Positions 3,591 through 20,114 of a stretch of 21,982 nucleotides of DNA are shown one piece after another. This DNA is from a virus. The notes under the pieces are model-generated. The model had not been told where the DNA came from and did no database searches. It saw only the letters and a list, made by a program, of their open reading frames with translations. Numbering within the stretch: position 1 is the stretch's first letter; each line of letters begins with the position of its first letter. The DNA lies in the IMG/VR virus record IMGVR_UViG_3300042465_005888, positions 1 to 21,982 of that record. The stretch is one strand, 5' to 3'. Position numbers and translations under genes: made by a program.

Positions 3591-3623
3591 GGCCGCAACC
3601 AAAACGCTTTGATTGCGCTAGCC
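3591..3623 (-). terminator. Hairpin at the convergent operon junction (possible terminator of the late operon)
   Basis: Read on the minus strand, C-GCAATCAAA (3617-3608), a GCGT loop, then TTTGGTTGC-G (3603-3594) make a ten-pair stem with one G-U pair. Three more pairs (GGC with GCC) close outside a bulge that is exactly the TAG stop codon of the 2363-aa protein gene. There is no U-run after the stem in either direction, so it is not a standard intrinsic terminator; it could stabilise the 3' end or act with Rho. On the plus strand the G-U pair becomes a C-A mismatch. The rest of 3579-3617 holds only a TAGGAGG without a useful start. Confidence 0.35.
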
Positions 3624-6600
3624 CTCAATCTCGGCCATGCGATTATTAAGAACCTTCATTCTGTTAGCAATAAGGTTCTCAACAGATTGAATTGCCTGCC
3701 GGTCGGCGCCCTTCTCCAAAAGGTCGCGCCTGCGCTGGCGCAGTTTCTGTACATCCTTCTCGACCTTGTTGGCAAACTGCACCAAGCGTGCCTCTGGGTT
3801 GTCCCTGATGTACTCCATCACGTTCTCGCGTGCTTCACGTCGGCCCTTGATCTCGTTCTCGTGTTTGTTGAGCTTTACGAGGTTGCTGTAGAACCGGGCT
3901 GACTCTGCGGCGTTACCCTTCGTATCGCCCACAAAACGGCCTACAAGAGGAATTTTGTACGTGGGCAGGTCTTCCCCCGTCACCATGCTTTTTGCGGTCG
4001 TCTGGGCCTTAATAAACTCCCTGCCGAGACCGCCGAAGGCTTGGCCAATCAGGTAGTCAAGCTGATCAGGTGTCGGGCTCAGTACGCCCGGCTGGAACTT
4101 GGTGCCGCCGCTGGCAAGGTTCAGGTAGTAAGCAATCTGCTCAGAGAACCAGCTTGCCGTGTCCTTGGCGCGGGTGTAGCCCGGCGTCGGGTCAAGATTG
4201 CTGAAGTCCTTGCGGGCGATCGGCTTGCCCGTCCAATCTCTGTTTTCGGTCAGTGCCACCAACGGGTCGGCAAACGTGGGAGCAATCGACTGCACAGACC
4301 ACCCGGCGTTGCCAACCGGGTTGAACGCCTCAAGGAACATGCCGGTCAGAGACTCGGCACGCTTGGCCGTATCTTTGAACCCGGACAGCGCCCACTCAGT
4401 GAGGATGCGGCTCACACCCGGAATGACGTGGTAGCCAAGCGGCATTGGGAAGGTCAGATACTTGCCATCGCCGATTGGCAGGATCAGGTTGCGCTCACGC
4501 ACAAACTCTGGCGGCTCTTCTTCATCAAAGCCGGCCATAGCCAACAGCGCGGCCTGCATCGTGCCAAGCAACAAGCCGCCGCCGATAATCTTTTTGCCCA
4601 TCGGGCCACGAAGCGTCTGGACCAGTCTGGTTGTGCCCTGCACAGCAGCGTTGAAGAACGCATACAGGGCGCCGGCCTGAACAGCAATCTGCCCCTTGCG
4701 GTTGAAGTTAACCGTCAGGTTCTTGGCCAGAGAAGCGGCCTCATCATTGCTCATCCCATTTTCTTTTGCTGCTTTGTAGGCAGACAGGCGGATGGCGTTT
4801 TCCATAGTGTCGTTGTAGTCAGACAGCCAGTCGAGCACAGCGCGGCCAGCGGCCTTTGCCTTGCCCTCGGTGATCTGCTTCATCTCGCGCTCAAGCGCCT
4901 CGGCACGCTCCTGCGAACGGCTGAACTGATCGCGGAAACCGGTCTGCCCGCCCTCACGTTGGAACTCGTTCCACAGTTTCGACCACTCGCCCTGAGCCTT
5001 CTCGCCGCGGCGATCCGCACGCAGGTCGGCATAGATACCCTTGAGTGCTGGCAACACACCGCCCATGATCTGCTTTTGAGATCCGGCAAGCGGGGTGTCG
5101 GACAGTTGTAGCGCAGCGCCCTGCACGTCACGAAGGAAGTTGTATGCGCCGAAGATCGGGTTGTACTGGGTGTTGACCGCCGCCATCCAGCGAGTAATGG
5201 TTGCAATCAAACTCATGCCGCGACCAAGCTGATCGGCATCTAAGTTTTTGAGCGCCGACGCCATGTTCTTTGCCCGATCGTTTTGCGGGTTGAAGAACAC
5301 ATAACGATCTCGGCCGTTGTAACGCATCGAAAGAACATTGTCATTGTTGCGCAGCATGGCATTGACGCGGCTGACAACCTCATTGGTGTTCTTGTCAATG
5401 CTCTTTTGCTGAGGCTCCTTCATCAAGAACTTAGCGTCCTCTTTGCTCAGGCCCATAGCCTCTAGCTCTTCGATGGCTGCTGGCGAGACCTCTGCCATCG
5501 GGTCAATTGCAAGCCAGAAGTCTGGGTTGGGGTTTTGCACGGCCAAGCCAAATAGCGCCTGAGACACCCGGTTTTTGTTGGCACGCACAATTGCCCGCTC
5601 ACGCTGCATGGCCACGTTGGCAAGGATGTCCACCACCTTGCGCTTGGAGCCCATCGCACGACGACTGAATGAGCCGCGCACATCAAAACCCTGACCAACG
5701 CCGGTGCTTGTCGTGGTGTACTGGAAGTCGATGTCTTCACGTTGCAGAGGCACGTAATATGGAAATGCCGCTTCCCACGCCTGTATTGTTTCTTTGCGCT
5801 CAAGACCTCCATCAAGAAGGACCTGTCTCGTTCCTTTTGTGATCGAGTCCAACTGCTTGGCCAGCGCCTCAAATTCCTTCTTGCGCTTTTCAGGCAAGCC
5901 GTCCATGTAGTCTTGCGCAGCCTGATCAGTAATCCCGGAGCCGCCGTCCTGCATGTCAGGATCGTTGGGGTTCACCTTGGCAACCTGCTCGTTGTAGGCG
6001 GGCGCATGACGGTTATGCAGGTACTTCTCAAACTCAGGAATGGTGATGCCCATGCGCTGCATGTTGTTCATCAGCGGGCGCAGCTCACCTTGCAGGAAGT
6101 CCTTGGTCTCCTTTGCAGTGCGACCGTGGTACAGCTCTTCCTGCAGGTATGGGTTCCACTTGTTTGCAATCTTGCCAGCCTTGGCGGTAATGGCTTCAAT
6201 CACACGCTTGGTGTCCACCATCTTGTCTTGCAGCAGACGAATGATGTCGTCCTTGGAGGTCTCGCCGTACAACTTGGTGTCGTCGGGCTCATTCCATGAG
6301 GACTGCACCTCTTCGTTGTAAATGTTTTTGCGCGGACGCTTGGTGGGCGGCTGTTCGCCTTCTTGCTGGAAGCGGATGTCTCCTTTACCAAACTGAGCCA
6401 TCAGCTCCGACTCATAGCCGGAAGAAATTGGAACCATGTCCGAAACGTCAATATCCAGTCCAGTTCCGGTATCAAAAGATTGGCCGGCCACCTGCACACT
6501 GCCATCAATTGGCTGATACTTATCTGGTGAAGCAAACCCACCTTCTTGCATAACAAGAACAACAGGTACCCTTAGCACACCCTCTGAGCTAAGCGCCGAC

Positions 6601-9600
6601 ATACGATGCCGCCCTTCGTGCCCAACAATTTGCCACTCTTCGTTTGGTTTACCTTTGTTTATTTGATTGATGAACAAGAATGGCGTCTGACTCTCAGACC
6701 TAATTTTCTGAATATCTAGCTTTCCAGACTCTTTGCGAATTTGTGTTTTTCGTTCGGCGGTTGGTGTTGTGCCATTAACAAATTCGTCAGGATCAACAAA
6801 TGCGGCGTAGGCTTTTGTTCGACCATCTGAATATCCAAACTGACGAATGAGGGCATTGATGCGGTCGTTCGACCATCCGGCTATTGTTTTATTCAATTCT
6901 TGCTGGAACAGTCTATCCTGAACCATCGGGCCGGCTGGCTTTGCAACACCAAGCCGGGCGCCTTTTTTACTCAGCATGGCGTCAATTGCGTCAACATCCA
7001 CATCAAGCAGGGACTCTGTTGATCGCACCAGCCTTTCGAGGGCCGACTCATACGGCTTGCCCAGACCCAACGCCGTGCGGATTAACTCAACCAACTGAGT
7101 GAAAACAGACTTCTCGCCCACCTTGATGTCATCAAAGTAGGTCTGCACATCCTTGTCTGTAATGCCCCATGCCAGCATCTCGTCAGGGTCGGACAAGACG
7201 TTGTTCAGGCGCTTGTAGTACCTCTGCATGACGGGCGGCAGAGTGCCAGCCTTGGCATCGGCATTGAACCTGTCAGCAATCATGTTGAACAACTCGATCA
7301 GCTGCCTCTTGAGCGGATCTGTGTTGGGCATGAACTTGAACTGCCCGCGTGTAGCAACGTGCAGCAACTCGTGCAACACGGTGATGTAGTTCATCCCCGG
7401 AGGAAAGCCACTCTGGTTGTTGAGTGCGGCAGCGCCGTTAAGAGTGACCTCGATTGTGGTGCCTTTGTCTCCAGAGCCCCACTTGAAATTAGTAACTCCG
7501 CGGGCGTTGCGAAGCATTACGGGCCGCTTGTTTCCACCTGCAACGGAAAACTCCAGCTTCATGCCCTTGCGCTGGAACGCACGCAAGCGGTCCCGGACCT
7601 TTTGGGCAATGACACGAGCAAAGGCGTTGGGCGCGTTGGCCACAGTCCAGTCTGCAACCTGCAGCATGGACTTGCCGGTCAGCTCTGCTTCGATCTTCTG
7701 CTCTTTGGGGTCAATGTTGATGCCGGTTTGACCTTCAGTTTGATACAGGAAGTCGGACTTTGAGGCGTACTTGGCGTTTTTGGCCAGAAGAAATTGGCCG
7801 ACCTGATACACCTCGTCTGCCGCAACAACCGGGCGACGGCTTGCGCGGTCATAGAAATATCCATGTCGCGCCGGATCAAAACCAACTTGAACCCACGCCG
7901 GGTCACTCATCAAGTCTTTGACTCTGGCGTAGGTCTCGTCGGGATCTAGGTTTTGCCAAGTACCTTCGACCGTTTGCAAGGGGGCCTTTGCCTCACCAGC
8001 CGCGACCGCAAGGCCCCGCTCTTGACCGCGGGTTTCAAACGTAGCGTTTTTGAGCCACCCCGTGCTTCGAAAGCCTATCAGTTTGCCAATTGTTTTGAGG
8101 CCAGGCTTGCCCTCGTGGATCGACACAACGCTGCCGCCGCGCTCACGGGCTGGCAGATCCATCCTCAAACCAACCTTGGTGCCGTTTGGAATTTCAACAT
8201 TGATTCTGTCGCGCTTGCCAGCATCGACAGTTTCATTCATCTTGGCTTCGGATGTCGGAGGAGATAACTTCTCTTGCTCAATGACCGGGATTGGCGCATA
8301 GAAGTCAACGTATTTCTCAAACTCCTCGCGGCTCATCCTGCCCTGCTGCAACAGTTGCGCAGCTGCCTGAACCTGAGGGTTTCTGCGTGACGGCTTGATG
8401 CTGGCCGTGTCCAGCAGAGGCGGTCGCTCTGGTGCCGCAGTCAACTCTTCAACTTGTTGGTCCTGCTCAAAATCAAACAGGCCTCGCTGCCCCTCTTGCT
8501 GGAACCGGCGCTCCACGCCAAGAGCGTCGCTCAGACGTTCTGCAAGAATCGTTTCATAAGCCAAGTCGGGATTGGCTCTGGCCTCTTCAAACGCCTGCTC
8601 TTCAATCAGACTAATGTCCTCGCCGCGCTCTTGGGCAAGCCTGCGCAGGGCGTCAATTTCTGGAACTGCAGGCGCTGCTTCAGCTTCCGTGCGGGCCTCG
8701 CGTTCAGCCTCTGTGGCCTCAGATACTTCGTACTGAATAGTCTTTGGCTGCTTGATGTCAGACTCAAGTTGAGCAACGACGTTTTCTGCCGTCTTGATGT
8801 CGTTGTCAATGTTCCACGGCGCATAGTTACCGGCACGCAGCTTGTCCTTGATGAACTCTGTTGCCTTATCGACATCTCGGGTTTCGCTATCGACCCGCTG
8901 GGACGGTTCAAGAAACTCGTCAAGCAATCCATCATCGACCATCTCGCTGATGTAGGTGCCTTTCTTGCCTTTGCTGATCAGGCGGTTCTGAAGCCGGGTG
9001 CGTGCGCTTTTGGTGGGTGCATCAACTCCAATGTCCGAAACCTCGTCAGGCGCAAGGGCGCCCTCGACAACCTTGAGCAAAGCATTTGTTTTGGACTTTG
9101 CTTTGAGCCGAGCAAGATCCTTCTCTGCCTGCAGGAATGCAATCTCTTGATCGGTCTCGGGCTCGGACTTCCCAAACAGGCGCTGCATCTTGCTGGCAAT
9201 TGAACGCACATCACTTTCGCTGAGGTCCGGCTCTGCTGCACGGGCCAAGAATTCGTTAAGGTCACGCTCGGCCACGACAGCGTCACGGCTTTCCACGGGA
9301 GGCAAAGTCTCATCAGCAAAGACAGATCCCTTTGCGGCCTCAGAATCCTTGCGTGCAAACTCCACCCCTTGAACCAACAGCTCTTGGATTTGGCCATCAA
9401 TGCGGGCGATTTCAGCCTTGACCTGCGGGGTTTGCTCTGATGCCAACAAACGCTGCTTCTCACGCTGCAGGAATGCGTAGTCCTCGCCAAGCGGAACCTC
9501 TGCTTTCGCTTCTTCCGCCTCTCGGCGACCGCGAAGTGCTGCGGCCAAAGGATCTTCACCTCCACCAAGCAAAGCGGCGCGGCCGGTGCGAGTGATTGAC

Positions 9601-10709
9601 GGACCAACCGGCTCTTGCGGGACGACTGGTTCCTGAATCGCCTTGCGCAGACGCAACTGCTCACCAGCTTTGCGCCCCTCTTGCTCTGCACGCAGCCGCT
9701 CTTCTTCGGCAAGAATTCTGTCAGCCTCAGCGCGGGCAGACCTGCGAAGCCCAGCCTCAGCGCCGCCAAATGCACCGCCAAGACCAGCGCCAGCAAGCGC
9801 CTCAAGCGTACCGGCGCCCACAGCGCCACGAAGCGTCGGCACATCGAAGCCCTCACGTTGCAGCGCAATGTTCTGAGCAATCTGCTCTTGCGAAGCCTGC
9901 AAGAACTCGGGCACGGATTCAGTCAGGGCTGACTTTGCCGCAGCACCGCCAACCTCACGCAACGCAGTCTGCGGAACCTTCTCAGCCGCCGCCTTTGCTG
10001 TGTCTTTTGCGGCAGCTCGGAACAGGATGTTCTTGGCTGCACTCTCAACGCCGGTCGTGCCGGCAAGCCCCCCGAGCCCTGCGCCAAGCAAGATCTGATC
10101 AAGGTTCTTGCCGCCGTATGCCTGCGCTTGCTGTGCTGTGGCCTCGGCCTGCTGCTCGGGAACTCCGCTTTCCATCAGGGTGCGCTTGGTCTCTTCGTAG
10201 ATTGAGCCCTTGATCGTGCCTGCGCCCATGCCTGCGCCGATGCCAGCACCGACCGCCCGAGTGGCCAAAGCCCCGGCCCCAAGCACCTTGCCGCCTAGCA
10301 ATCCAAGAATCGTCGGGGCCGCGGTGCCCAGACCTTGCGACAGAAGGTCAAAGGGCGCAACAGTAAACGCCTTGAAGCCGGCCTTGACCTGCTCCAGCAT
10401 TCCCTTGTCCTCGGCATCCTTCATGATCCGGGCAATCTCTTGCTCGTCATTGCGAGCCTGCGCGGACATCAGGCTGGTGAGGTATCCCTCTGCGCCCTTG
10501 ATAGCCTCAGACGCACGAGAGCCTGCGCCAAATGCGTCGGCAATCATGCGAACGCCGGAGAGGGCGCCGCGACCTACACCCAGTGGTACATCGGCAACCT
10601 GACGAAGAACCCCAGAGGGCTCTTCTTTTTTCTCAACAGGCTTGTCCTTTTCCCACCAATTTTCTGTCTTGCTTACGACAGCATCTTTTTCCCAGAAGTT
10701 GGTGGCCAT
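3618..10709 (-). CDS. Giant large polyvalent / internal virion protein with zincin-like, ParB-like and LPD38-type regions (2363 aa)
   Basis: ATG after AAGGGT, last gene of the late operon. Seen in order: a duplicated N-terminal N-[FW]-W-E-K-D tag (residues 4-9, 17-22); Gly/Ala-rich amphipathic stretches (about 105-320); a charged helical part (320-700); FQQE (736); a GFDPARHGYFYDR segment (about 943-955); HELLH at 1113-1117 with E1177 in DEMLAW as a likely third zinc ligand; FQQE (1268); a ParB-like part with HEGRHR at 1364-1369; FQQE (1447); then a C-terminal region like LPD38, with a hydrophobic span near 2040-2060 and a terminal coiled coil (2290-2363). In known large polyvalent proteins such modules are injected with phage DNA to protect it or change the host. 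Injection and enzyme activity here are inferred. It could also help form the DNA channel. Confidence 0.8.
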   Translation of the reverse strand: MATNFWEKDAVVSKTENWWEKDKPVEKKEEPSGVLRQVADVPLGVGRGALSGVRMIADAFGAGSRASEAIKGAEGYLTSLMSAQARNDEQEIARIMKDAEDKGMLEQVKAGFKAFTVAPFDLLSQGLGTAAPTILGLLGGKVLGAGALATRAVGAGIGAGMGAGTIKGSIYEETKRTLMESGVPEQQAEATAQQAQAYGGKNLDQILLGAGLGGLAGTTGVESAAKNILFRAAAKDTAKAAAEKVPQTALREVGGAAAKSALTESVPEFLQASQEQIAQNIALQREGFDVPTLRGAVGAGTLEALAGAGLGGAFGGAEAGLRRSARAEADRILAEEERLRAEQEGRKAGEQLRLRKAIQEPVVPQEPVGPSITRTGRAALLGGGEDPLAAALRGRREAEEAKAEVPLGEDYAFLQREKQRLLASEQTPQVKAEIARIDGQIQELLVQGVEFARKDSEAAKGSVFADETLPPVESRDAVVAERDLNEFLARAAEPDLSESDVRSIASKMQRLFGKSEPETDQEIAFLQAEKDLARLKAKSKTNALLKVVEGALAPDEVSDIGVDAPTKSARTRLQNRLISKGKKGTYISEMVDDGLLDEFLEPSQRVDSETRDVDKATEFIKDKLRAGNYAPWNIDNDIKTAENVVAQLESDIKQPKTIQYEVSEATEAEREARTEAEAAPAVPEIDALRRLAQERGEDISLIEEQAFEEARANPDLAYETILAERLSDALGVERRFQQEGQRGLFDFEQDQQVEELTAAPERPPLLDTASIKPSRRNPQVQAAAQLLQQGRMSREEFEKYVDFYAPIPVIEQEKLSPPTSEAKMNETVDAGKRDRINVEIPNGTKVGLRMDLPARERGGSVVSIHEGKPGLKTIGKLIGFRSTGWLKNATFETRGQERGLAVAAGEAKAPLQTVEGTWQNLDPDETYARVKDLMSDPAWVQVGFDPARHGYFYDRASRRPVVAADEVYQVGQFLLAKNAKYASKSDFLYQTEGQTGINIDPKEQKIEAELTGKSMLQVADWTVANAPNAFARVIAQKVRDRLRAFQRKGMKLEFSVAGGNKRPVMLRNARGVTNFKWGSGDKGTTIEVTLNGAAALNNQSGFPPGMNYITVLHELLHVATRGQFKFMPNTDPLKRQLIELFNMIADRFNADAKAGTLPPVMQRYYKRLNNVLSDPDEMLAWGITDKDVQTYFDDIKVGEKSVFTQLVELIRTALGLGKPYESALERLVRSTESLLDVDVDAIDAMLSKKGARLGVAKPAGPMVQDRLFQQELNKTIAGWSNDRINALIRQFGYSDGRTKAYAAFVDPDEFVNGTTPTAERKTQIRKESGKLDIQKIRSESQTPFLFINQINKGKPNEEWQIVGHEGRHRMSALSSEGVLRVPVVLVMQEGGFASPDKYQPIDGSVQVAGQSFDTGTGLDIDVSDMVPISSGYESELMAQFGKGDIRFQQEGEQPPTKRPRKNIYNEEVQSSWNEPDDTKLYGETSKDDIIRLLQDKMVDTKRVIEAITAKAGKIANKWNPYLQEELYHGRTAKETKDFLQGELRPLMNNMQRMGITIPEFEKYLHNRHAPAYNEQVAKVNPNDPDMQDGGSGITDQAAQDYMDGLPEKRKKEFEALAKQLDSITKGTRQVLLDGGLERKETIQAWEAAFPYYVPLQREDIDFQYTTTSTGVGQGFDVRGSFSRRAMGSKRKVVDILANVAMQRERAIVRANKNRVSQALFGLAVQNPNPDFWLAIDPMAEVSPAAIEELEAMGLSKEDAKFLMKEPQQKSIDKNTNEVVSRVNAMLRNNDNVLSMRYNGRDRYVFFNPQNDRAKNMASALKNLDADQLGRGMSLIATITRWMAAVNTQYNPIFGAYNFLRDVQGAALQLSDTPLAGSQKQIMGGVLPALKGIYADLRADRRGEKAQGEWSKLWNEFQREGGQTGFRDQFSRSQERAEALEREMKQITEGKAKAAGRAVLDWLSDYNDTMENAIRLSAYKAAKENGMSNDEAASLAKNLTVNFNRKGQIAVQAGALYAFFNAAVQGTTRLVQTLRGPMGKKIIGGGLLLGTMQAALLAMAGFDEEEPPEFVRERNLILPIGDGKYLTFPMPLGYHVIPGVSRILTEWALSGFKDTAKRAESLTGMFLEAFNPVGNAGWSVQSIAPTFADPLVALTENRDWTGKPIARKDFSNLDPTPGYTRAKDTASWFSEQIAYYLNLASGGTKFQPGVLSPTPDQLDYLIGQAFGGLGREFIKAQTTAKSMVTGEDLPTYKIPLVGRFVGDTKGNAAESARFYSNLVKLNKHENEIKGRREARENVMEYIRDNPEARLVQFANKVEKDVQKLRQRRRDLLEKGADRQAIQSVENLIANRMKVLNNRMAEIEG

Positions 10710-10712
10710 AGG

Positions 10713-12464
10713 TTACCCTTTGATTCGTTGAGTTCCGTCCGGTGCAGTGTAGACGCTGCCCTTTGGCAGTTTATCGTATTGCTCTTTGGTGGTGGGGGTC
10801 GAGGCGGAAGCCGCTGGCTCTTTCATGCCCTGCATAATGGACCTGATCTCAGCCCTTGCAAAGTCAGCCTCTTCCTTGGTCTCAGCATTTTGCAACAACG
10901 TCTGGGCGGCACGCAGCCTATCCGTAGGAGTAGCCCCTCGGGCCTCTCCGCCAAGAATACCAAGAGCCTGCATAGCCTTGAGCCGTGTTGCTCCGGGTGT
11001 TTCCTTAATGTATTCCTTGATTGCCTCTTCCTTCAGGCGTTCTGCGGCCGTGGGCATGGCACGCAGTCTTTCCTCAAAATTAAAGCGAATCTTCTGAATC
11101 TTCTGGTCGTTTTCGAACTTGAGTTTTTCAAGGGCAAGCCGCGAAGCCTCTTCTCTGGCCTGACGCTTGTCTCTGCCCTGCTCTTGAAGAATGTCAATGT
11201 TGGCCTTGAGCATCCGATCAAACTCGTTTGTGCCAACGCCAAACACATCTTTGGCGTACTGACGATTGGCATCAATCTTCCTCTGCTCAAGATCAATCTG
11301 CTTCTCAATCAAGCCGGTACGCTTGGCTTCACGCTCACGCTCAAGGGCCTGAACTCCGCGTGCGCCGGCGGCTCCGGCCTCGAAAGAGGACAGGCCTCGC
11401 GGCGTTGCGGCAACCTGCCCAAGAAATTCCATGAGACCGCCAAAGCCGCGCTCAGGACCTGCAGCGCCAGCCTTCTGACGCTCAAGCTCGGCTATCAATC
11501 GGTCGTACTGCGATGTGTCGGGTTTGCCAACGCGCTCTTCAAACTCTTTTTCGCGGCGGGCAGCATCAGCTCTTGCAATTGCTGCGGGGCTCATGGTCTG
11601 TTCAGGCAAGACCATTTCTTCGCTTAAGCCGGGAGGCATGAGCTCTTGTGCAGGCGCCCGATCAGCCGGTGCAGGAGCCCGCGCAGCAAGCTGTCGTGCG
11701 GGGCGGGTAGTGACTGCATTTGTTTGGGAAGGGCGTGTTTGCTTGGGCAAAACCATTTCTTCATCTGCGCCGATGGCAGATGGCTGGATTTTTGCCTCTT
11801 CACGCTTTAAGGATGGGTCGCTAACAAGACGACGGAACAATGTCCTCGGGTCTGGAACCAACTGATCAAGGAACTCGGCAACATTTTTCATTTGCTCTCT
11901 GTAAGGCACTGCGCCCTCCAGATTACCGCTTTCGATAATTCTCTGAATGCGCTCTTCCTCCTCGCGCCTTTCCCTCTCTCGATTGCGCCTATTCATTGTG
12001 TCGTAAGGAGTTTCGTAGGGCCTTGGAACGGTTCCTGTGTTTTGAAAGGCAACAATCCCGCCGCCCGCCATGCCAAACTCCACGGGCAGTTCGTCAATCC
12101 CTTGGGGCTGACTTTCGGGCTGAGGAACATTCGGAGGGATTGCGGCGGGCATCCCGCCCATCATCTGCTGCTTTTGCATCTCAGCAACCATACGCGCCTC
12201 AATGGCCTGTTGCGCACGCTGGCGCAGGCTCTCAGCCACAGTGGGAGGCTCAGATCCGGGAGGAGCCATGCTTTGCAACTGGTTCATTGCTTCCTGCCTT
12301 TTTGCAGCGTCATTTTCAGTCGTGACGATATTGAGCGCCATCAACTGGCGAAGATCATCAGGCAATCCGGTGGGGCTGGTTTCTCGGTCTTTTTGCACAC
12401 GCTGCGCCAATGCGCCGGGGTTGCCCATGAACAGCGATGCAATGCCTTGTGCGCTGGGTTGCAT
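10713..12464 (-). CDS. Putative internal virion protein with GGGIVAF motif (583 aa)
   Basis: ATG preceded by AAGGAATCAAC. The N-terminus (QGIASLFMGNPGALAQRVQK, then LPDDLRQLMALNIVTTENDA) and GMAGGGIVAF at residues 131-140 are patterns I associate with virion-linked proteins of marine and freshwater podoviruses. The centre (about 150-300) is charged and disordered in look, with many Pro/Ala segments. Residues about 310-530 are Lys/Glu/Arg-rich helix, probably coiled coil, including a Gly-Phe-Gly-Gly-Leu-Met-rich spot (GPERGFGGLMEFLGQ). The last residues, YDKLPKGSVYTAPDGTQRIKG, form a small G-[ST]-x-Y-x-A-P-D-G-x-x-R ending also common in phage proteins. No enzyme motif. Placed between the 1038-aa and 2363-aa proteins, it is probably co-packaged or injected. 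Confidence 0.65.
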   Translation of the reverse strand: MQPSAQGIASLFMGNPGALAQRVQKDRETSPTGLPDDLRQLMALNIVTTENDAAKRQEAMNQLQSMAPPGSEPPTVAESLRQRAQQAIEARMVAEMQKQQMMGGMPAAIPPNVPQPESQPQGIDELPVEFGMAGGGIVAFQNTGTVPRPYETPYDTMNRRNRERERREEEERIQRIIESGNLEGAVPYREQMKNVAEFLDQLVPDPRTLFRRLVSDPSLKREEAKIQPSAIGADEEMVLPKQTRPSQTNAVTTRPARQLAARAPAPADRAPAQELMPPGLSEEMVLPEQTMSPAAIARADAARREKEFEERVGKPDTSQYDRLIAELERQKAGAAGPERGFGGLMEFLGQVAATPRGLSSFEAGAAGARGVQALEREREAKRTGLIEKQIDLEQRKIDANRQYAKDVFGVGTNEFDRMLKANIDILQEQGRDKRQAREEASRLALEKLKFENDQKIQKIRFNFEERLRAMPTAAERLKEEAIKEYIKETPGATRLKAMQALGILGGEARGATPTDRLRAAQTLLQNAETKEEADFARAEIRSIMQGMKEPAASASTPTTKEQYDKLPKGSVYTAPDGTQRIKG

Positions 12465-12473
12465 GTTGATTCC

Positions 12474-15400
12474 TTATTTGATGACGCCGAGGCCTTTGAG
12501 CAGTTCGTAAACTGTCGTTGCGCCGCCAGCAAACTGCTGTAAATTGCTTTGCCCCGGCTGAACCAAAGACTGCGACGCAAGCGGCAGTCCAGAAAGAAGT
12601 GACTGTTGGAACTGCAGCATCTTGAAGGGGTTCAAACGAGCCTCCTCAAACTGCGCCTTGTCTGCCGCAATGCCCTCGGCCTCAATATCCCTTTGAGTTT
12701 TGCCAAGATCGGCAAGAGACTTGATGCCCTCAAGTCCGTACTGTGTCTCAAGGCCACCAAGTTGACCTTGTGTTTGAGCGGCTTGCAGGCCCGAGCGCAA
12801 TCCTTCCATGCCATAGGTGGCTCCAAACTGGGCCTCGGCCATGCGCCGCGCTTGATCGGCATTGAACTGAGCCATCGCCTTGTCGTAGGCCGTTGCGTAC
12901 CCCTGTCCAAGCACGTCGGATTGTTTTTCAAGCAGGTTGCGACGACCTTCGGACTCCATGATGGCCTGCCGACTTCCGCCAAACGCACCTGCTTTTGCAA
13001 GACGAGCGGCATCGGACATGCGGGCAATGTCAGACTGCCGGGTCAATTCTCGCAATTGAGGGTTCAAGGCAGTCTCAATGAATGGGTTCATGTACCGCTG
13101 CGCAATGCTGCCTCCGTCCGCCGGCGGCGTTAACGCGGAGGGAAGGCCGGCCATAGCTGCGCCGTCTTCCTGATACCCCGGAGGCATTTTGTTGGTTGGA
13201 CGCATACTTCCCGGAGGGGCAAATGCACCATCGCCGTCCATGATGACGGGCTCCGACCCCGGATAGCCCGGAGGCAATTTATTGGTTGACACGCCTTGCG
13301 ACTGGGGGGAGAGGAACGACGGTGTGCGCCGCGGCATATCCGCGCTCGTTGAACGATTGTCGCCCGAGGAATACGGCATTATTCCCGATGTCTGCGGCTG
13401 CGCAGGCGACGGGACGTTGAGGTATGACGGCGCAACGTCAAGCCCACTTACATTTCGGTCCCCAAGAAATGAAGTAGTCTGTGGCGTGTATCGCAGGTTT
13501 GGAGCCAAAGCGCCAAGCCCTCCGGCAAGGCCTGCAGCTTGACCAATGTTTGCAGACGGCCTAAACAGTGCAGAATTTACAAATGCAAGTTGCTGCAGCG
13601 GCGAGGCGCCCGCGGTCAGTGGGCCGGTGTAAGCCTCATACGGAGATTCCGAAAGAGCCTTGCCCTTGCCCAAAAGATCGGCCACGAACGGCCCAACCCA
13701 TGAGGCAAGACTGGAGCTTGTGACGCCGGCGCTCGGGTTGGAAGCTGCGGATCGAGTGACTGTGCCACCCACTTCGTAGCGATTGACTTGTCCACCGGGC
13801 ATAAATTTCTCCGGGTTAATTTCCTTGCCCTGTTCGGTCGTGCCGGTCCGGGCTTTGCGAATGCGGGCCATCATGGCGTAGAGCTTCTTGGCCCCGCGCT
13901 CAGTATCGCCGTCGCCGATACGTTTGACAACTTCCGGGGAGATGAAGGCCTCTTCATTGGCCACGCGTGCCTCTTGCCGGCCGTCAATTTTTGTTGGGAT
14001 GGAATCGCTCATGCCATCCCCGTCACCCTTGATCGGTCTGGCGCCGAACTTGCTTGCAAGCATCTTCAGGCCGGCCTCGCTGCTGCCATTGCCAAGATGA
14101 GACACGACATCAGCAGGCACCACAAATCCGTCAGAAACCAGCCCGCCTCTTGCGGCTTCCATGATCCCTGAATTTTGCGAGGCAAGCTGCTGGGGGCTTT
14201 GCGACATAGCTTGACTTGCTCTCCAGTTGGCAAGCGAGGTTTCCAAAATCCTGCGTGCCTCATCCTGAGACTTCCCTGCAAGATTTTGCACTTCAGACTC
14301 ACTGCCAGCTCGGCCGTACACCTGCTGAAAAAGATCCTGCAAACCGCCGCCAGACGGTGGCGCTACCGGGGTCGGCGGCTGAACCGGAGGTTGTGCCGGA
14401 GGCTGTACCGGAGGCTGTACCGGAGGTTGTACAGGCGGCTGCACGGGCGGCTGAACCGGAGGTTGTACCGGAGGTTGTGCCGGAGCGACAGCCCCAACAT
14501 TAAACTCACCTCCCGGTGCGTACCCAGAGCCGCTTACAGACATCGTGGCACCAAGCTCCTCCGTTTTCTTACGAAGTGCTTCTCTTCGCGCTTGGCGTTG
14601 CTCGGCTTCCATGATGTTGGACTTCAGGCGCATCAGAGCGTCTGCATCGCTTTCGTTATGGAGCTTCGTGAGCAAAGACGGATCGGCTTGAGCTTGCGCA
14701 TAGAAGTTGCCATACCCCGACTTACCAGTCACTTGGTATGCCTCAAGTTCCGCACGCTTGCGGGCGTCTTCCGCAGCCGCTGCGGCTACAGCACGGTCAT
14801 ATTCTTCTTTGGTGCCAAAACCACGATAGCTGCCCGCACCGGAACCGCCTGTAACGAATGGCGATGTGGACGCCGCAGCTTGGGTTGCACCCGAACCGCC
14901 ACCGGGCGCCGCGGTTGTCGTACCGGGCTGCGTTGGAGTTGTGGTCGTACCTGGCTGCGTTGGAGTTGTGGTCGTACCTGGCTGCGTCGTTGTGGCCCCA
15001 GACCCGGTGGAAGCACCGGACCCTGTAGCGGTCGGCCTAAATTGCTGCACCTGCTGAATTAGCGCAAGCAAAGACGGCAGATCGTATGCTGCCGGTTGGG
15101 TAAACGTGGGAGTTCCGCCCAAAGGCCGACTTGCAGGGCTCGAAATGCCGGCGTTTTCGGCAGTCACGTTTTGTCCCGTGCGGGCGTAGGTTACATCCCC
15201 GCCATAGTTGATGCCGCCAGATCCCGGACGCCGACCGGCAGGCGGCTCTCTGAGCATTGTGCGGGTTGCCGTTACCTGCGGGATGCCGCCTTGATAGCCG
15301 GGGTTCAGGATGGTAGGGCCACTGCTTCTGTTTGCGCTGTACAGGCCCGCAAGGATGGACGCCAAATTGCCGTACTCAGATGTAGAACCTTTGCCAGACA

Positions 15401-15590
15401 TAAGGCGCTTGGCCAAGTCGGCCAAATCTTTTAAGCCAACCCCGCTGGTACCGGCATTGCTTGCCATATTGGCAGCAAGTTTTGCAAGTTCTGGGCCTGT
15501 CAAATTCCCATATCCCGAATAATCAATCGTCGGGTCTGAAGTGTCCCCAAAGTATGTGGCGAGGTTATCGTCAGAGTATTCTTCAGCCAT
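12474..15590 (-). CDS. Modular repeat-rich internal virion protein (1038 aa)
   Basis: ATG after GAGGAGC, one base past the upstream stop. Modules seen: an N-terminal IDYSGYGNL peptide (22-30) shared with the 409-aa protein; Gly/Ser/Thr linkers with a 9-aa TTTTPTQPG repeat (about 199-225); a helical charged part (260-345); nine QPP[VAT] units (372-407); a Q-x-x-Y-G-R-A-G segment (about 425-455); duplicated FVVPADVV.. / FISPEVV.. units (489 and 549) around GDGDGMSDSIPT; two [ST]NK[LM]PPGY peptides; and a C-terminal helical core with AGAFGGSRQAIMESEGRRNL. The last and the DGMSDSIPT parts occur in internal virion proteins of several podovirus groups. No enzyme motif. Likely a scaffold-like or injected protein rather than a tape measure, though a tape-measure-like role cannot be excluded. 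Confidence 0.7.
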   Translation of the reverse strand: MAEEYSDDNLATYFGDTSDPTIDYSGYGNLTGPELAKLAANMASNAGTSGVGLKDLADLAKRLMSGKGSTSEYGNLASILAGLYSANRSSGPTILNPGYQGGIPQVTATRTMLREPPAGRRPGSGGINYGGDVTYARTGQNVTAENAGISSPASRPLGGTPTFTQPAAYDLPSLLALIQQVQQFRPTATGSGASTGSGATTTQPGTTTTPTQPGTTTTPTQPGTTTAAPGGGSGATQAAASTSPFVTGGSGAGSYRGFGTKEEYDRAVAAAAAEDARKRAELEAYQVTGKSGYGNFYAQAQADPSLLTKLHNESDADALMRLKSNIMEAEQRQARREALRKKTEELGATMSVSGSGYAPGGEFNVGAVAPAQPPVQPPVQPPVQPPVQPPVQPPVQPPAQPPVQPPTPVAPPSGGGLQDLFQQVYGRAGSESEVQNLAGKSQDEARRILETSLANWRASQAMSQSPQQLASQNSGIMEAARGGLVSDGFVVPADVVSHLGNGSSEAGLKMLASKFGARPIKGDGDGMSDSIPTKIDGRQEARVANEEAFISPEVVKRIGDGDTERGAKKLYAMMARIRKARTGTTEQGKEINPEKFMPGGQVNRYEVGGTVTRSAASNPSAGVTSSSLASWVGPFVADLLGKGKALSESPYEAYTGPLTAGASPLQQLAFVNSALFRPSANIGQAAGLAGGLGALAPNLRYTPQTTSFLGDRNVSGLDVAPSYLNVPSPAQPQTSGIMPYSSGDNRSTSADMPRRTPSFLSPQSQGVSTNKLPPGYPGSEPVIMDGDGAFAPPGSMRPTNKMPPGYQEDGAAMAGLPSALTPPADGGSIAQRYMNPFIETALNPQLRELTRQSDIARMSDAARLAKAGAFGGSRQAIMESEGRRNLLEKQSDVLGQGYATAYDKAMAQFNADQARRMAEAQFGATYGMEGLRSGLQAAQTQGQLGGLETQYGLEGIKSLADLGKTQRDIEAEGIAADKAQFEEARLNPFKMLQFQQSLLSGLPLASQSLVQPGQSNLQQFAGGATTVYELLKGLGVIK
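14370..14477 (-). repeat. 12-bp in-frame tandem repeat coding (QPP[V/A/T])9
   Basis: Nine consecutive 12-base units encode Gln-Pro-Pro-Val, with Ala once and Thr in the last. Codon choice differs between units (caa/cag, cct/ccg/ccc, gta/gtt/gtg), so the peptide is kept while the DNA has drifted. It gives a stiff polyproline-like spacer between the helical part and the central modules of the 1038-aa protein. Confidence 0.95.
14917..14995 (-). repeat. 27-bp in-frame tandem repeat coding TTTTPTQPG
   Basis: Two full copies of a 27-base unit, differing at one base, and a partial third. The encoded Thr/Pro/Gln/Gly spacer lies in the low-complexity linker near residues 199-225 of the 1038-aa protein. 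The near identity of the copies points to a recent expansion, unlike the diverged 12-bp repeat nearby. Confidence 0.95.
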
Positions 15591-15591
15591 G

Positions 15592-16821
15592 TCAGCTCCT
15601 CAACAGTCGGGCCAGTTCATCGGCCCGGTCAGTTTCTTTACCCGTCGAAGGCGCAGACAGGGATGATCCAAAAATGTCTTCCATCAATTCTATGTCAGCC
15701 CGGTTGTCAGGTACAGACAAAACGTAAGGGGCCTGCTGTTGAGACCCCAAAAGGGCAAAAAGTCCTGATAGATCAACGCCAGATCCTGTCGCCGCCGGCT
15801 TTTCTGGTCGGCTCTGCGTTGCGGTTGAGCCCGTTGGCTTGGTAACGGATGACGGCGTAGACCCAGTTGTTCCCCAAAGCGCCATAGCTTCATCGGGCGT
15901 CAGGTCCTGATCAGGCGTTTCGTAATCAAGGAAGGGCTCCTTGGGCCTTTGCCCAGTGATCGTGATATTGTTGTCCATCGTGTCATAGAAGTCCTGCAGC
16001 TGGTCTGACGTAAGATTGCCGTAACCGGACCAGTCCACATCGCCGCCAAACATGTTGGCAAGCTGCTCTTGAGACAGGTTGCCGTAGCCGCTGTAATCAA
16101 CGGTGCCATCAGGCGAGGTTGATGCCTGCAAGTATTGCAGCAAGTCTTCATCGGTAACTTCTTGGCCGGGGTAATAGCCCAGATCACCGCCCGTACCTTG
16201 ATCGGCAAAGCCTTCTGAGGCGCCTTTTCCGCCACCCTTCACGCCGCCAGTCAGGTTAATACCTGCCCTCATAATCGCAAGTGGGTCGCCGGACCTAAGC
16301 GCCATGCCAACATTGACGGCCTTCTTGATGTCGCCAAGGTCGTAGCCGGGAAGACCCTTCATCCCCGCAAGGTCGGCGCCTTGAAACGCAGCAGAAAGCA
16401 GATCCTTGTCCTCAAGGGACTTCAATATCTTGGCGTACTTGTTTGCCTGATTGATGGTGGAAACTGTGTCTGCGGCCGCGCCGAACTGACCCGCAAAATG
16501 GCCGGCAGCAGGAAGGGCTGACATGATGGCCTTTCCCCAATCGCCCTCACTCGCTGCCTTTGTTGCGTTCACGGCGGCAATGTACGGCCCCACCGCCGGA
16601 ATTGCCGAAGCAAACGTCATGGCAGCAGTCAGAAAGTCTTTTCCGTAAGACTTCCCCGCATTTAATGGGAAGGGATCGCCAACCGGGTTCCCGTAGTAAT
16701 CGTAGGTTTGGTAATACACCAAACCGTTTTTCCTGCCAACCTCCACAAAACTTTGTCTGTCGTCCTTGAGGTCCAAGGTCCGGATCAATGGGTTTTGGTC
16801 AACGCTTTTGTCAATTGCCAT
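15592..16821 (-). CDS. Putative internal virion protein with SGYGNL repeats (409 aa)
   Basis: ATG with AAGGA upstream. The first 60 residues are a small beta-rich part (RQSFVEVGRKNGLVYYQTYD, then YYGNPVGDPFPLN). Residues 65-210 are Ala/Gly-rich with several amphipathic or near-membrane helices (FLTAAMTFASAIPAVGPYIA, MSALPAAGHFAGQFG), as in proteins that pass through or insert into membranes. Two copies of V-D-[YW]-S-G-Y-G-N-L (241-249 and 262-270, 21 apart) follow, then an acidic and Ser/Thr/Pro-rich part and a C-terminal LSGLFALLGSQQQ segment. The same peptide opens the next protein, so the pair may share a binding partner. It follows the 461-aa structural gene by ten bases. No known family recognised. 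Confidence 0.6.
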   Translation of the reverse strand: MAIDKSVDQNPLIRTLDLKDDRQSFVEVGRKNGLVYYQTYDYYGNPVGDPFPLNAGKSYGKDFLTAAMTFASAIPAVGPYIAAVNATKAASEGDWGKAIMSALPAAGHFAGQFGAAADTVSTINQANKYAKILKSLEDKDLLSAAFQGADLAGMKGLPGYDLGDIKKAVNVGMALRSGDPLAIMRAGINLTGGVKGGGKGASEGFADQGTGGDLGYYPGQEVTDEDLLQYLQASTSPDGTVDYSGYGNLSQEQLANMFGGDVDWSGYGNLTSDQLQDFYDTMDNNITITGQRPKEPFLDYETPDQDLTPDEAMALWGTTGSTPSSVTKPTGSTATQSRPEKPAATGSGVDLSGLFALLGSQQQAPYVLSVPDNRADIELMEDIFGSSLSAPSTGKETDRADELARLLRS

Positions 16822-16830
16822 GATCAGTCC

Positions 16831-18216
16831 TTACTGCGTCAGGTCCCAAAAGGCAATCGTGCCGTAGCAATCGCCCGCAGGTGTTGCGGAGTCCACCGTG
16901 CGGATTCCGAGCGTTAAAACATCGCTGACGCCGGTCAAAGACACGCCCAACTGAAGCGCCCAGTTGTAGCCAGAGGGGTCAACCAAAGGCTGAATACCGC
17001 CCGATCCGCTTGAAGATACATAGTCTGTTTGCACCAAAGTGCCGCCTGTCATGGCTGTGGCAGTGGTGTCCATCTCCACGTTTGCGTCCGTGTCCACTGG
17101 AGCCCAAGATGCGCCGGTCAAGGTTGAGTTGAAGAACAGACCCACCTCATAGCTCTGACTCGTAATGGGAAGAACCTGCATCCGACCCGGAACAATTACC
17201 GCTCCCAGCGCCGTCGAGGCCAGACGGATTGACGCAATCGGCTTAAAGGTCAACTGGATGTTGGTCAGCTTGGATGTGCGCCGAGCCAAGTGGCTGGGCG
17301 AATACTGTTCATACCCGCCTTCGGAGATCACCGTTGCGCATATGTGCTTCATGCTCGCGGTGGTCAGGTTCGACAGATTCTTGATTTCGTAACGCACCGG
17401 CAAGATCGCGGTGGTCATGTACGTTGTAGTTTTGTCGTTGGCGTTCTCAAACGTGTGGCAGACGATGTATTGGCCGTTGATCACAAAACCGGTGCGTACC
17501 GATCCCACGCCAAGCCACTCAAAGTCCATCCACAAAATCTGGGTCTTGGACACATCAAGAGTAATCCCAGAAGGCCCTGTACCGTCGAGTTTGTCGCCGT
17601 TCCAGTTGGCTTGGGTTACGGTGCGAACATCGCTTGGCGTTCCGGGTGTGGGGATAGAGTCCGAACGCAACACCATCGAGAGCGTGGTGCCGTCCACCTG
17701 AAAGAACACGCCATTCTGAGTATTGAAGTACCCAACACGTTGGCGGATGTTGGCCGTTGGCGTGTTCATGGCAAAGGTGGCAAGCATTAAAAGCCCTTTG
17801 CCGGGTTGGTATGACATTGATCGGAAGGATTGCCGCACCGCCTCCGAGTTGGTGGTCGCCGCAACGGACATCTGCACCGCAGATTCATTGGTCAGAAAAG
17901 AAGTCGTGGCCCCGTTGGCTGTGCTGGTGTCAAACTGATTATCGGAGGCATACCGCTGTTGGGAGTCAAAAAGCGTGTAAGGCTGGCTGACCCGCAGCCG
18001 CCCAAAGGCATCGACGTTGGTGCCGCCGATGGAGACTGGAAGAGTATCGACGTTTGCCACAAGCTGCCCCAAGATGTTGTTCAGTTGGTTGAAGTACAGG
18101 CGCAGGACGTTGTTGAACTGTTCCTGATACCGCGAGTCGTACTGATACGGTGCCAGCGGCAGGTTGGGCGGCGCAACCTTGTTGAGATCAAACTCGGTGG
18201 TGACAATAAAGCTCAT
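16831..18216 (-). CDS. Tail/adhesin-type virion structural protein (461 aa)
   Basis: ATG overlaps the stop of the gp10-like gene (ATGA). The N-terminal helical part (about 20-58, YDSRYQEQFNNVLRLYFNQL) looks like a trimer- or head-attachment stalk; then comes VSIGGTNVDAFGRLRVSQPY (61-80), a D-A-F-G-R-L-R-V-S-x-P motif seen in structural proteins of many marine and cyanophage genomes. The remainder is Ser/Thr-rich beta structure with aromatic strands (FFQVDGTTLSMVLRSDS, ILWMDFEWLGVGSVRTGFVI), like a receptor-binding or decoration protein. Position next to the stabilisation protein fits a tail component. Exact role (fibre, spike or capsid fibre) is not decided by the sequence; no spike hydrolase motif is visible. 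Confidence 0.65.
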   Translation of the reverse strand: MSFIVTTEFDLNKVAPPNLPLAPYQYDSRYQEQFNNVLRLYFNQLNNILGQLVANVDTLPVSIGGTNVDAFGRLRVSQPYTLFDSQQRYASDNQFDTSTANGATTSFLTNESAVQMSVAATTNSEAVRQSFRSMSYQPGKGLLMLATFAMNTPTANIRQRVGYFNTQNGVFFQVDGTTLSMVLRSDSIPTPGTPSDVRTVTQANWNGDKLDGTGPSGITLDVSKTQILWMDFEWLGVGSVRTGFVINGQYIVCHTFENANDKTTTYMTTAILPVRYEIKNLSNLTTASMKHICATVISEGGYEQYSPSHLARRTSKLTNIQLTFKPIASIRLASTALGAVIVPGRMQVLPITSQSYEVGLFFNSTLTGASWAPVDTDANVEMDTTATAMTGGTLVQTDYVSSSGSGGIQPLVDPSGYNWALQLGVSLTGVSDVLTLGIRTVDSATPAGDCYGTIAFWDLTQ

Positions 18217-20114
18217 CTACGACCATCCTGCCTGATGTCAATACGGGGCGCACCGAGCTGCCACGTAGTCCCAAGCTGCGTTGAGCCAATTTTGAAGATC
18301 AACTGCCGTCCACGAACCCGCGTGTAGATCTGCCCAGTAAACTCTTCGGTGATCACGTATGTGGTTCCCTTGACCACATTCTGCCCGGCGTTATCAATTG
18401 AGCCGCTGCCCGAGTTGTACAGCGCATAGAGCGTCATCTCGACCTGAGGCTGTTGATTGGTGCTGCTCAGAGTAGAGTTGCTGAACGTCAGGTCAGGAAG
18501 AACCCGCCACACAAAGCCAAAGTTGTGACCATCATCAATATCAAACTCAGACGACGAAATATATGACTCAATGGGAGTAGGAGTAGCCGTGGAATTGTCA
18601 TCAATCCCATCCTCGTGCTGAACAATATTGTTGAGGTATGTGGCGGCAATCGGGAAGTCCAGCAGGCCGGAATCGAGCCACGCCGTGCGGGACAGCGTGC
18701 CGTAGTACCACGTATCCTCAAGGTAGTTGTAGATCACATACTTGTCAACGACATCGTAGTCAAGCGAACAGTAGAACCACCAGACTTCGTTGAATCCTTC
18801 GTTCGTGCCAGAGAAAACCTGCAGGTTCTGGTTCGGGTTGAAGTCATTGAAGATGTACCGCCGCAGATTGCAGTTGAGTGTTTGCACACGGCCGTCGTAC
18901 TTGTAGAACTTGTCCACACCCATCCAGTAAATCGCGCCGGATGCAACGACTGCCGCGTTGGGGCTGACGATGGAGATGTTGTCGCCAAGCAACTGCGACC
19001 CCCAAACAACTGGTGGCCCCAGATACTGCAGCGAATACACGGCGGAGTCCGTGAACACCACGATTTCCTGACGGGTCTGCACTGCAGTAACAATCTCAGA
19101 GCCGTGGGACAAGGTAACGCTGCCAGCTTGGTTGGTGGCGGCAGGTGTCCATACAGTGTAGTTTTCCTGATCCGACCAGCGAATGAGCATCGGGTCCAGT
19201 ACAACAGAGCCGTAGTCGTTCGTGCCGAACACAATCACAAACCGGGATACATCAGAGACCGTGAAGTAGTTTTGATATATCGGCGTACTTGCGTCGCCAA
19301 CCGTTGTAATGTTGAAGCCACGAGTGCCCGTACCAGCCGAGTAGTCCCAGTAATACAAGCCTCCACCACGGGGTCCGTAAAGCAGGTCCTCGCCGTAGTT
19401 GTACTGGTTCCAGATACGCAAAGAACTCGTACTGGTCGTACCCGTGCCCCAAGGACCAAGCCCCCAACCTCCAGCACCCCACCCAAGCAATGGAACCTGT
19501 GTCGCCGGCCCAATGCTGATCTGGTAGTACGCCTGCACCGTTGCGCCACCGTTACCGGTATCCGAAGCGTTGGATAAAACAGGCAGGCCGGTCGTTGGGT
19601 CCTTAGCGGTGAAGGTGTAAGTGTTGGCGTCAATCACCGTGATCTGGTAGTCCTGCTCCAGCACGGCCTCTGTAATGTTGCCGCCCAGCCCGCCGGGGCT
19701 TGTCACATTGGCAAAGGTCACAAAGTCCCCGGTGATATGCCCGTGAGCGGTATCAGTTACCGTGATGGTGGAGCTGAACGGCGGGGTTGTGACGGCTGCA
19801 AACGGGCCGTTGAGTACAACCGGCGCACCGGGGTCCAGCGGCGTGATGTCAAAATACTGCCCGCCTTGGCAAACGTAGAACTTCAGGTTGGTGCCAACGC
19901 CAACGAGATTTGCGCCGCCAAGAGAAGTCCAGTTCCACAAAGAACGGCAGATGCCAAGGTATGTATTGGCGTTGAACCGAGTCCAACCGCCGATCTTCTC
20001 GGGATTACCCTGGCGGAAACGAATCTTGTCGCACTCGTACCATCCGCCCTCGGTGGTGTAGCGTGTGTTTTCGCGGTTTACACCGGGTTTGAACAGTATC
20101 TTTTTGAGCGGCAT
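18213..20114 (-). CDS. P22 gp10-like packaged-DNA stabilisation (tail hub) protein (633 aa)
   Basis: ATG after AGAGGA. The start, with RENTRYTTEGGWYECDKIRF then GNPEKIGGWTRF (residues 14-47), matches the start of phage stabilisation proteins related to P22 gp10, which plug the portal after packaging and connect to the tail. The rest has repeated beta-blade-like units with aromatic and Gly turns (LLYGPRGGGLYYWDY, IYWMGVDKFYKYDGRVQTL, FNEVWWFYCSLDYDVVDKY, YLEDTWYYGTLSRTAWLDSG), consistent with a propeller-like fold. An extra beta insertion with DTAHGHITGDFVTFANV and YQITVIDANTYTFTA (about 113-172) interrupts the N-terminal part. A W/G-rich loop (205-225) follows it. Family by signature; structure inferred. 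Confidence 0.8.
   Translation of the reverse strand: MPLKKILFKPGVNRENTRYTTEGGWYECDKIRFRQGNPEKIGGWTRFNANTYLGICRSLWNWTSLGGANLVGVGTNLKFYVCQGGQYFDITPLDPGAPVVLNGPFAAVTTPPFSSTITVTDTAHGHITGDFVTFANVTSPGGLGGNITEAVLEQDYQITVIDANTYTFTAKDPTTGLPVLSNASDTGNGGATVQAYYQISIGPATQVPLLGWGAGGWGLGPWGTGTTSTSSLRIWNQYNYGEDLLYGPRGGGLYYWDYSAGTGTRGFNITTVGDASTPIYQNYFTVSDVSRFVIVFGTNDYGSVVLDPMLIRWSDQENYTVWTPAATNQAGSVTLSHGSEIVTAVQTRQEIVVFTDSAVYSLQYLGPPVVWGSQLLGDNISIVSPNAAVVASGAIYWMGVDKFYKYDGRVQTLNCNLRRYIFNDFNPNQNLQVFSGTNEGFNEVWWFYCSLDYDVVDKYVIYNYLEDTWYYGTLSRTAWLDSGLLDFPIAATYLNNIVQHEDGIDDNSTATPTPIESYISSSEFDIDDGHNFGFVWRVLPDLTFSNSTLSSTNQQPQVEMTLYALYNSGSGSIDNAGQNVVKGTTYVITEEFTGQIYTRVRGRQLIFKIGSTQLGTTWQLGAPRIDIRQDGRR

Follow-up and report, generated by a model that had tools for sequence, protein, structure and literature searches.

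The DNA analysed here (hereafter, the window) comprises positions 1 to 21,982 of the IMG/VR record IMGVR_UViG_3300042465_005888, a stretch of 21,982 nucleotides in which the late genes all lie on the minus strand. These genes encode a tail "stabilization" or needle-head-type protein of 633 aa (18213..20114; PHROG 3287), a virion structural protein of 461 aa (16831..18216; PHROG 1645), and four proteins called here A (409 aa; 15592..16821), B (1038 aa; 12474..15590), C (583 aa; 10713..12464), and D (2363 aa; 3618..10709). A and B, which are indeed encoded by adjacent late genes as the initial annotation had proposed, are putative ejection or internal virion proteins; residues 192–392 of A are predicted to be disordered, and B combines a disordered N-terminus with a long helical C-terminus. 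C occupies the position at which some relatives encode a protein with an SLT transglycosylase domain, and D is a giant protein with an LPD38 domain (PHROG 14770/616). The genes of this cluster lie next to the tail stabilization/needle-type genes and upstream of a giant protein of the injected type. This position, together with the SLT domain found in the C-type proteins of two other contigs (L118 and L130), makes it probable that A–D are the internal (ejection) proteins of a podovirus. In PHROG and Pfam, C and D of the window itself give no SLT match.

Among known systems, the podovirus ejection proteins (P22 gp7, gp20, and gp16; T7 gp14, gp15, and gp16) come closest; they are, like A–D, encoded by consecutive late genes beside the tail genes, and one member of the A–D cluster has a transglycosylase domain in some relatives. 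They differ in that A and B have no detectable sequence relation to the solved structures, and B no fold relation. No PHROG or Pfam family was found for A, B, or C. Searches of the PDB by sequence returned no homologue of A or B, and a Foldseek search of the PDB with the low-confidence model of B returned none by fold, while the AlphaFold model of A gave nothing significant against viral models. Comparison of A and B with known ejection proteins, by sequence or with these low-confidence models by fold, likewise revealed no similarity. Some local features of the two proteins can be mentioned here. Residues ~486–574 of B (window 13869–14135) apparently hold two copies of a segment that is single in aligned relatives, FVVPADVVSHLGNGSSEAGLKML and AFISPEVVKRIGDGDTERGAKKL, and residues ~380–415 (window ~14345–14453) consist of PPVQPP repeats, a (PPVQ)n tandem largely absent from aligned relatives. 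The A proteins of many relatives (e.g., L005, L009, L029, and L045) have a recurrent C-terminal ending, GG-x-[IV]...LLxxLR[SG], of which the A of the window keeps ELARLLRS alone.

A and B of the window have a short peptide in common. It occurs as VDYSGYGNL in residues 241–249 of A (window 16075–16101), as VDWSGYGNL in residues 262–270 of A (16012–16038), and as IDYSGYGNL in residues 22–30 of B (15501–15527). These three full copies, together with a weaker SEYGNL in B (residues 71–76; 15363..15380, minus strand), had been reported in the initial annotation, and all four are real, with coordinates correct to within a few bases; a further weak copy in B, SGYGNF (residues 291–296; 14703..14720, minus strand), had been missed. 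Both weak copies fall below the threshold of the module scan, and a six-frame scan of the window located the peptide nowhere besides A and B. Alignment of six good copies (three from the window, two from contig L009, and one from L099) defines a full unit of ~19 residues, [VI]D[YW]SGYGNL[ST]xxEL, formed by a turn and a short helix; one of the L009 copies deviates, starting with T and ending in the divergent DSSTLL. In the window, the peptide scan, the module matrix, and AlphaFold place the complete modules, all on the minus strand, at residues 240–258 of A (TVDYSGYGNLSQEQLANMF; 16048..16104), residues 261–279 of A (DVDWSGYGNLTSDQLQDFY; 15985..16041), and residues 21–39 of B (TIDYSGYGNLTGPELAKLA; 15474..15530). 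A 19-residue score matrix run over the collected open reading frames recovers only these six copies and those of the duplicate contig L008, with a wide gap below them. AlphaFold predicts a short helix directly after every full copy (A 251–257, A 272–285, and B 33–45), in agreement with the helix anticipated from the letters. The modules lie in compositionally biased regions of low pLDDT that are predicted to be disordered, the usual context of short linear motifs: confidence is low at A 192–380 and B 1–33, and the mean pLDDT is 45.7 for A and 52.6 for B.

The resemblance between A and B exceeds what chance would produce. The two proteins have one 8-mer in common, which was the case for 0 of 2000 shuffled pairs, and when six late genes were compared pairwise (15 comparisons), theirs gave the highest local alignment score, 59, the shuffle maximum being 41. 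It had also been claimed that the codons differ between copies while the peptide is preserved. This holds: at identical degenerate residues, the codons differ in 5/7, 7/8, and 6/7 cases for the three pairs of copies, with 4.3–4.7 expected under independent codon choice, so that synonymous sites are saturated between copies. Judging from these substitutions, selection appears to act on the peptide and not on the DNA.

The exact peptide is rare in other phages. Pattern scans for the full peptide covered 2.9 million viral contigs of IMG/VR with exact-codon patterns, from which near variants may escape, and all in-frame matches in large genes were B proteins. D[YW]SGYGNL was found in frame inside a protein of the family in two further phages, L008/L009 and L099, in both at the N-terminus of the B homologue: the former carries DYSGYGNL plus DWSGYGGL, and the latter DWSGYGNLTPEEL. 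The pattern GYGNLTx[DE][EQ]L yielded no extra family member in IMG/VR, and comparison of tandem peptides with annotated phages and plasmids gave no convincing match and no cultured representative. The matches set aside as chance in the pattern scans were the following: an 81-aa frame of L007, open to the end of the motif and with no family neighbour; DWCGYGNL in a stop-filled frame of L096–098, L100, and L101; one 139-aa protein type in L105, L127, L160, and L161; unrelated proteins in L167–170; and the matches in L106, L129, L149, and L162. Among the collections searched, the window is the only place where an A protein bears SGYGNL, and the exact A–B pairing of this peptide is unique to it. 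The initial annotation had named loss from close relatives of both genes as counting against its proposal, and the exact sequence is in fact absent from the nearest relatives of A and of B (L010, L012, L014, and L023); the four nearest A relatives (38–40% identity) show ...FG[DQ]LTNET at its place.

The picture widens when the locus is followed across further phages. Because a single-sequence search retrieved no relatives of A, the loci were reached through B, whose homologues were collected by alignment search; the A labels in these contigs, which are mostly fragments, rest on synteny and a divergent profile. Wherever the contig is long enough, nearly all B homologues are directly preceded by another large gene in the position of A. 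The N-terminus of B is hypervariable, and in many homologues it holds repeats of a short peptide (VFDPTYGG, YYENDGT, DNIDxGGGWNP, and others); these motifs vary by lineage, and the remainder of B is conserved. With low complexity masked, B N-termini and A proteins scored at least 55 in 28 of 3540 comparisons across phages and in 2 of 60 within a phage; block-shuffled A gave no such pair, and the genes downstream of B gave 4+1, though there is twice as much sequence there. Short modules of the B N-terminus and of A come from one pool, the matches being far more numerous than in shuffles and also more numerous than with neighbouring genes. Same-phage A–B pairs also score higher than permuted pairs (p = 0.012, relatedness being only partly controlled), with the window as the most extreme case. 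The shared segments can be longer than the module: in L054, A and B have a related segment of ~48 residues in common, and B N-termini and A proteins of different phages have common segments of up to ~50 residues, as L088 B with L050 A. Within-phage sharing in the annotated podoviruses DSL-LC04, MinM2, CRP-902, HTVC027P, and Octadecabacter virus 2 was in no case comparable.

An unrelated peptide, VFDPT[YF]GG, behaves in the same way. In IMG/VR, 82 of its 83 pattern matches are in frame, and its fuller form is E-x-VFDPT[YF]GG-x-LP, with E at position -2 in 79 of the 82 even though this residue was outside the search pattern. By profile, the carriers were assigned to A (29 open reading frames), B (18), and C (one), and 17 remained unassigned; about seven of the latter are probably fortuitous, and most of the rest are virion-type proteins, among them baseplate tail tube cap homologues and one C-like transglycosylase protein. 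The number of copies per protein ranges from one to four, and from one to two for the full peptide of the window, which bears out the expectation that copy number varies. VFDPT[YF]GG is present in both A and B of four phages: L117 (the same contig as L066), L154, L163, and L150. Where A and B are both readable, it is in both genes of 3 of 15 phages, against ~4% expected from a rough calculation on single frequencies in the collected B-homologue sample (p about 0.02), L150 being additional; in the other 12 of the 15, just one of the two genes carries it. The recurrent pairing predicted by the initial annotation is not supported for the exact peptide, which outside the window occurs in B homologues alone, and stands in a wider form, in that other peptides are common to A and B of relatives and within-phage sharing is above expectation. 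Short peptides recur in different proteins beyond chance, in A and B and, for VFDPT[YF]GG, in A, B, C-type, and baseplate proteins. In six contigs (L112, L113, L116, L124, L143, and L146), myovirus-type virion proteins, the baseplate tail tube cap homologues among them, have E[NS]VFDPT[YF]GG, sometimes repeated, close to the N-terminus, and the SLT transglycosylase C-type proteins at L118:2779-5403 and L130:1436-3661 also bear ESVFDPTYGG. Relatives of A also contain repeats of a second peptide, LVITG[ND]R, of which the A of the window has a single copy, ITITGQR (residues 286–292; 15946..15966, minus strand). In the form ELV[IV]TG[ND]R it occurs in A proteins of L025, L066, and others, with up to six copies in L025 and 25 matches against 2.3 in shuffles. 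This second peptide may resemble the N-terminal sequences of TonB-dependent receptors.

What would such modules do? The reading tentatively preferred here, from the sequences and their predicted structures, is that they are lineage-specific, exchangeable docking motifs which tether the co-packaged ejection proteins A and B to a common site on a putative partner. The motifs, each a conserved turn of aromatic and glycine residues with a short helix behind it (~19 residues in all), would be carried by flexible stretches of the two proteins, in A the C-terminal half and in B the N-terminal tail. All would attach to the same site, the most likely candidates being the inside surface of the portal or tail channel and an internal core protein used by both; in this way A and B might be loaded side by side in the virion and leave it in order. 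The peptide that does this job would vary from lineage to lineage, SGYGNL in the window and E-x-VFDPT[YF]GG-x-LP in many others, and peptides would appear, disappear, multiply, and pass between A, B, and at times C. Docking to one site is favoured because the motifs are short, repeated, and helix-containing, and sit in flexible parts of co-packaged proteins. Counted against it are the nearest A relatives without SGYGNL, the negative PDB searches, and the overall low confidence of the AlphaFold models. Since in most phages of the family a given peptide is confined either to A or to B, a common partner need not be required in all of them, and since VFDPT[YF]GG is also found in myovirus baseplate and tail proteins, the receptor may not be specific for ejection.

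The main rival, possible although somewhat doubtful, is an old partial duplication or recombination across the A–B boundary. It would make the C-terminal part of A and the N-terminus of B paralogous, or leave them with exchanged segments, so that their similarity would reflect ancestry and little that the two now do in common. The segments of ~48–50 residues in L054 and in the L088–L050 comparison fit this idea, as do the closeness of the two module regions across the gene boundary and the tandem repetition of modules inside one protein. However, the window keeps only ~10–19 residues while synonymous sites are saturated, which calls for selection on the peptide, and VFDPT[YF]GG is also found in unrelated proteins, including the baseplate tail tube cap. 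A less likely alternative is that the partner of the modules is a host component encountered in the course of ejection (a periplasmic or membrane protein), their sequence tracking the host and not a virion partner. Motifs that differ by lineage in an otherwise conserved B would suit a host partner; podovirus ejection and myovirus baseplate proteins with the same peptide could meet the same host factor, and the perhaps receptor-like LVITG[ND]R repeats of A proteins would point in the same direction. Multiple copies per protein suit a multimeric virion channel equally well, however.

Convergence of functionless, glycine- and aromatic-rich linkers of low complexity would be in keeping with two regions that are both disordered and compositionally biased, but it is very unlikely given the 8-mer result, block shuffles that preserve local composition and yet abolish all strong matches, and in-frame full-motif matches confined, in large genes, to B proteins. 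Most improbable of all is that the peptide is a processing site or the substrate of a phage-encoded modifying enzyme, for example a 2-oxoglutarate oxygenase. The repeated short motifs with an invariant D and Y/F-G would accord with a substrate, and a 2OG-Fe(II) oxygenase gene lies nearby in annotated podoviruses with related tail genes, but PF13640 occurs on 2 of 42 contigs with VFDPT and on 1 of 48 other contigs, and is lacking from the window; the oxygenase idea was dropped for want of an association. Cleavage, for its part, would remove the very tail that bears the repeats.

The docking motifs proposed here would resemble short linear motifs (SLiMs) in being short, degenerate, repeated, located in disordered context, and quickly gained or lost. 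Known viral SLiMs mostly bind host proteins. A structural likeness is offered by phi-crAss001, whose tail barrel is lined by 12 copies of a 32-residue helical segment of the cargo protein gp45; six copies of a 14-residue helical segment, unassigned but probably also of gp45, lie at the muzzle (PMC10172136). There, a flexible cargo docks by short helical segments whose size and helix match the A/B module; the difference is that those segments come from (probably) one protein, whereas the peptide of the window is repeated in A and common to B. Ejection proteins are also known to be mosaic, with domain swapping between members (PMC8954989). In the open-access literature searched, there is no report of short peptides common to several ejection proteins, nor of the SGYGNL and VFDPT[YF]GG peptides themselves.

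The module is thus a real observation and part of a wider pattern that is undescribed in the literature searched, and it is this general phenomenon, more than the exact pairing, that makes the finding of interest. A broader generalization, rather doubtful at present, would be that environmental phages have a pool of exchangeable docking peptides, that each lineage marks two or three successive ejection proteins with a peptide of its own, that some of the peptides also mark baseplate proteins of myoviruses, and that one receptor site reads them all and decides which proteins enter the tail and are expelled through it. As VFDPT[YF]GG is present on dozens of phage contigs, the docking idea is testable by comparison alone. 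Little is understood of the way in which podoviruses choose, stack, and order the proteins that they inject. If docking by interchangeable peptides were true, cargo could be predicted from sequence, the peptides would indicate where the receptor surface lies, and loading could be tested by transplanting them.
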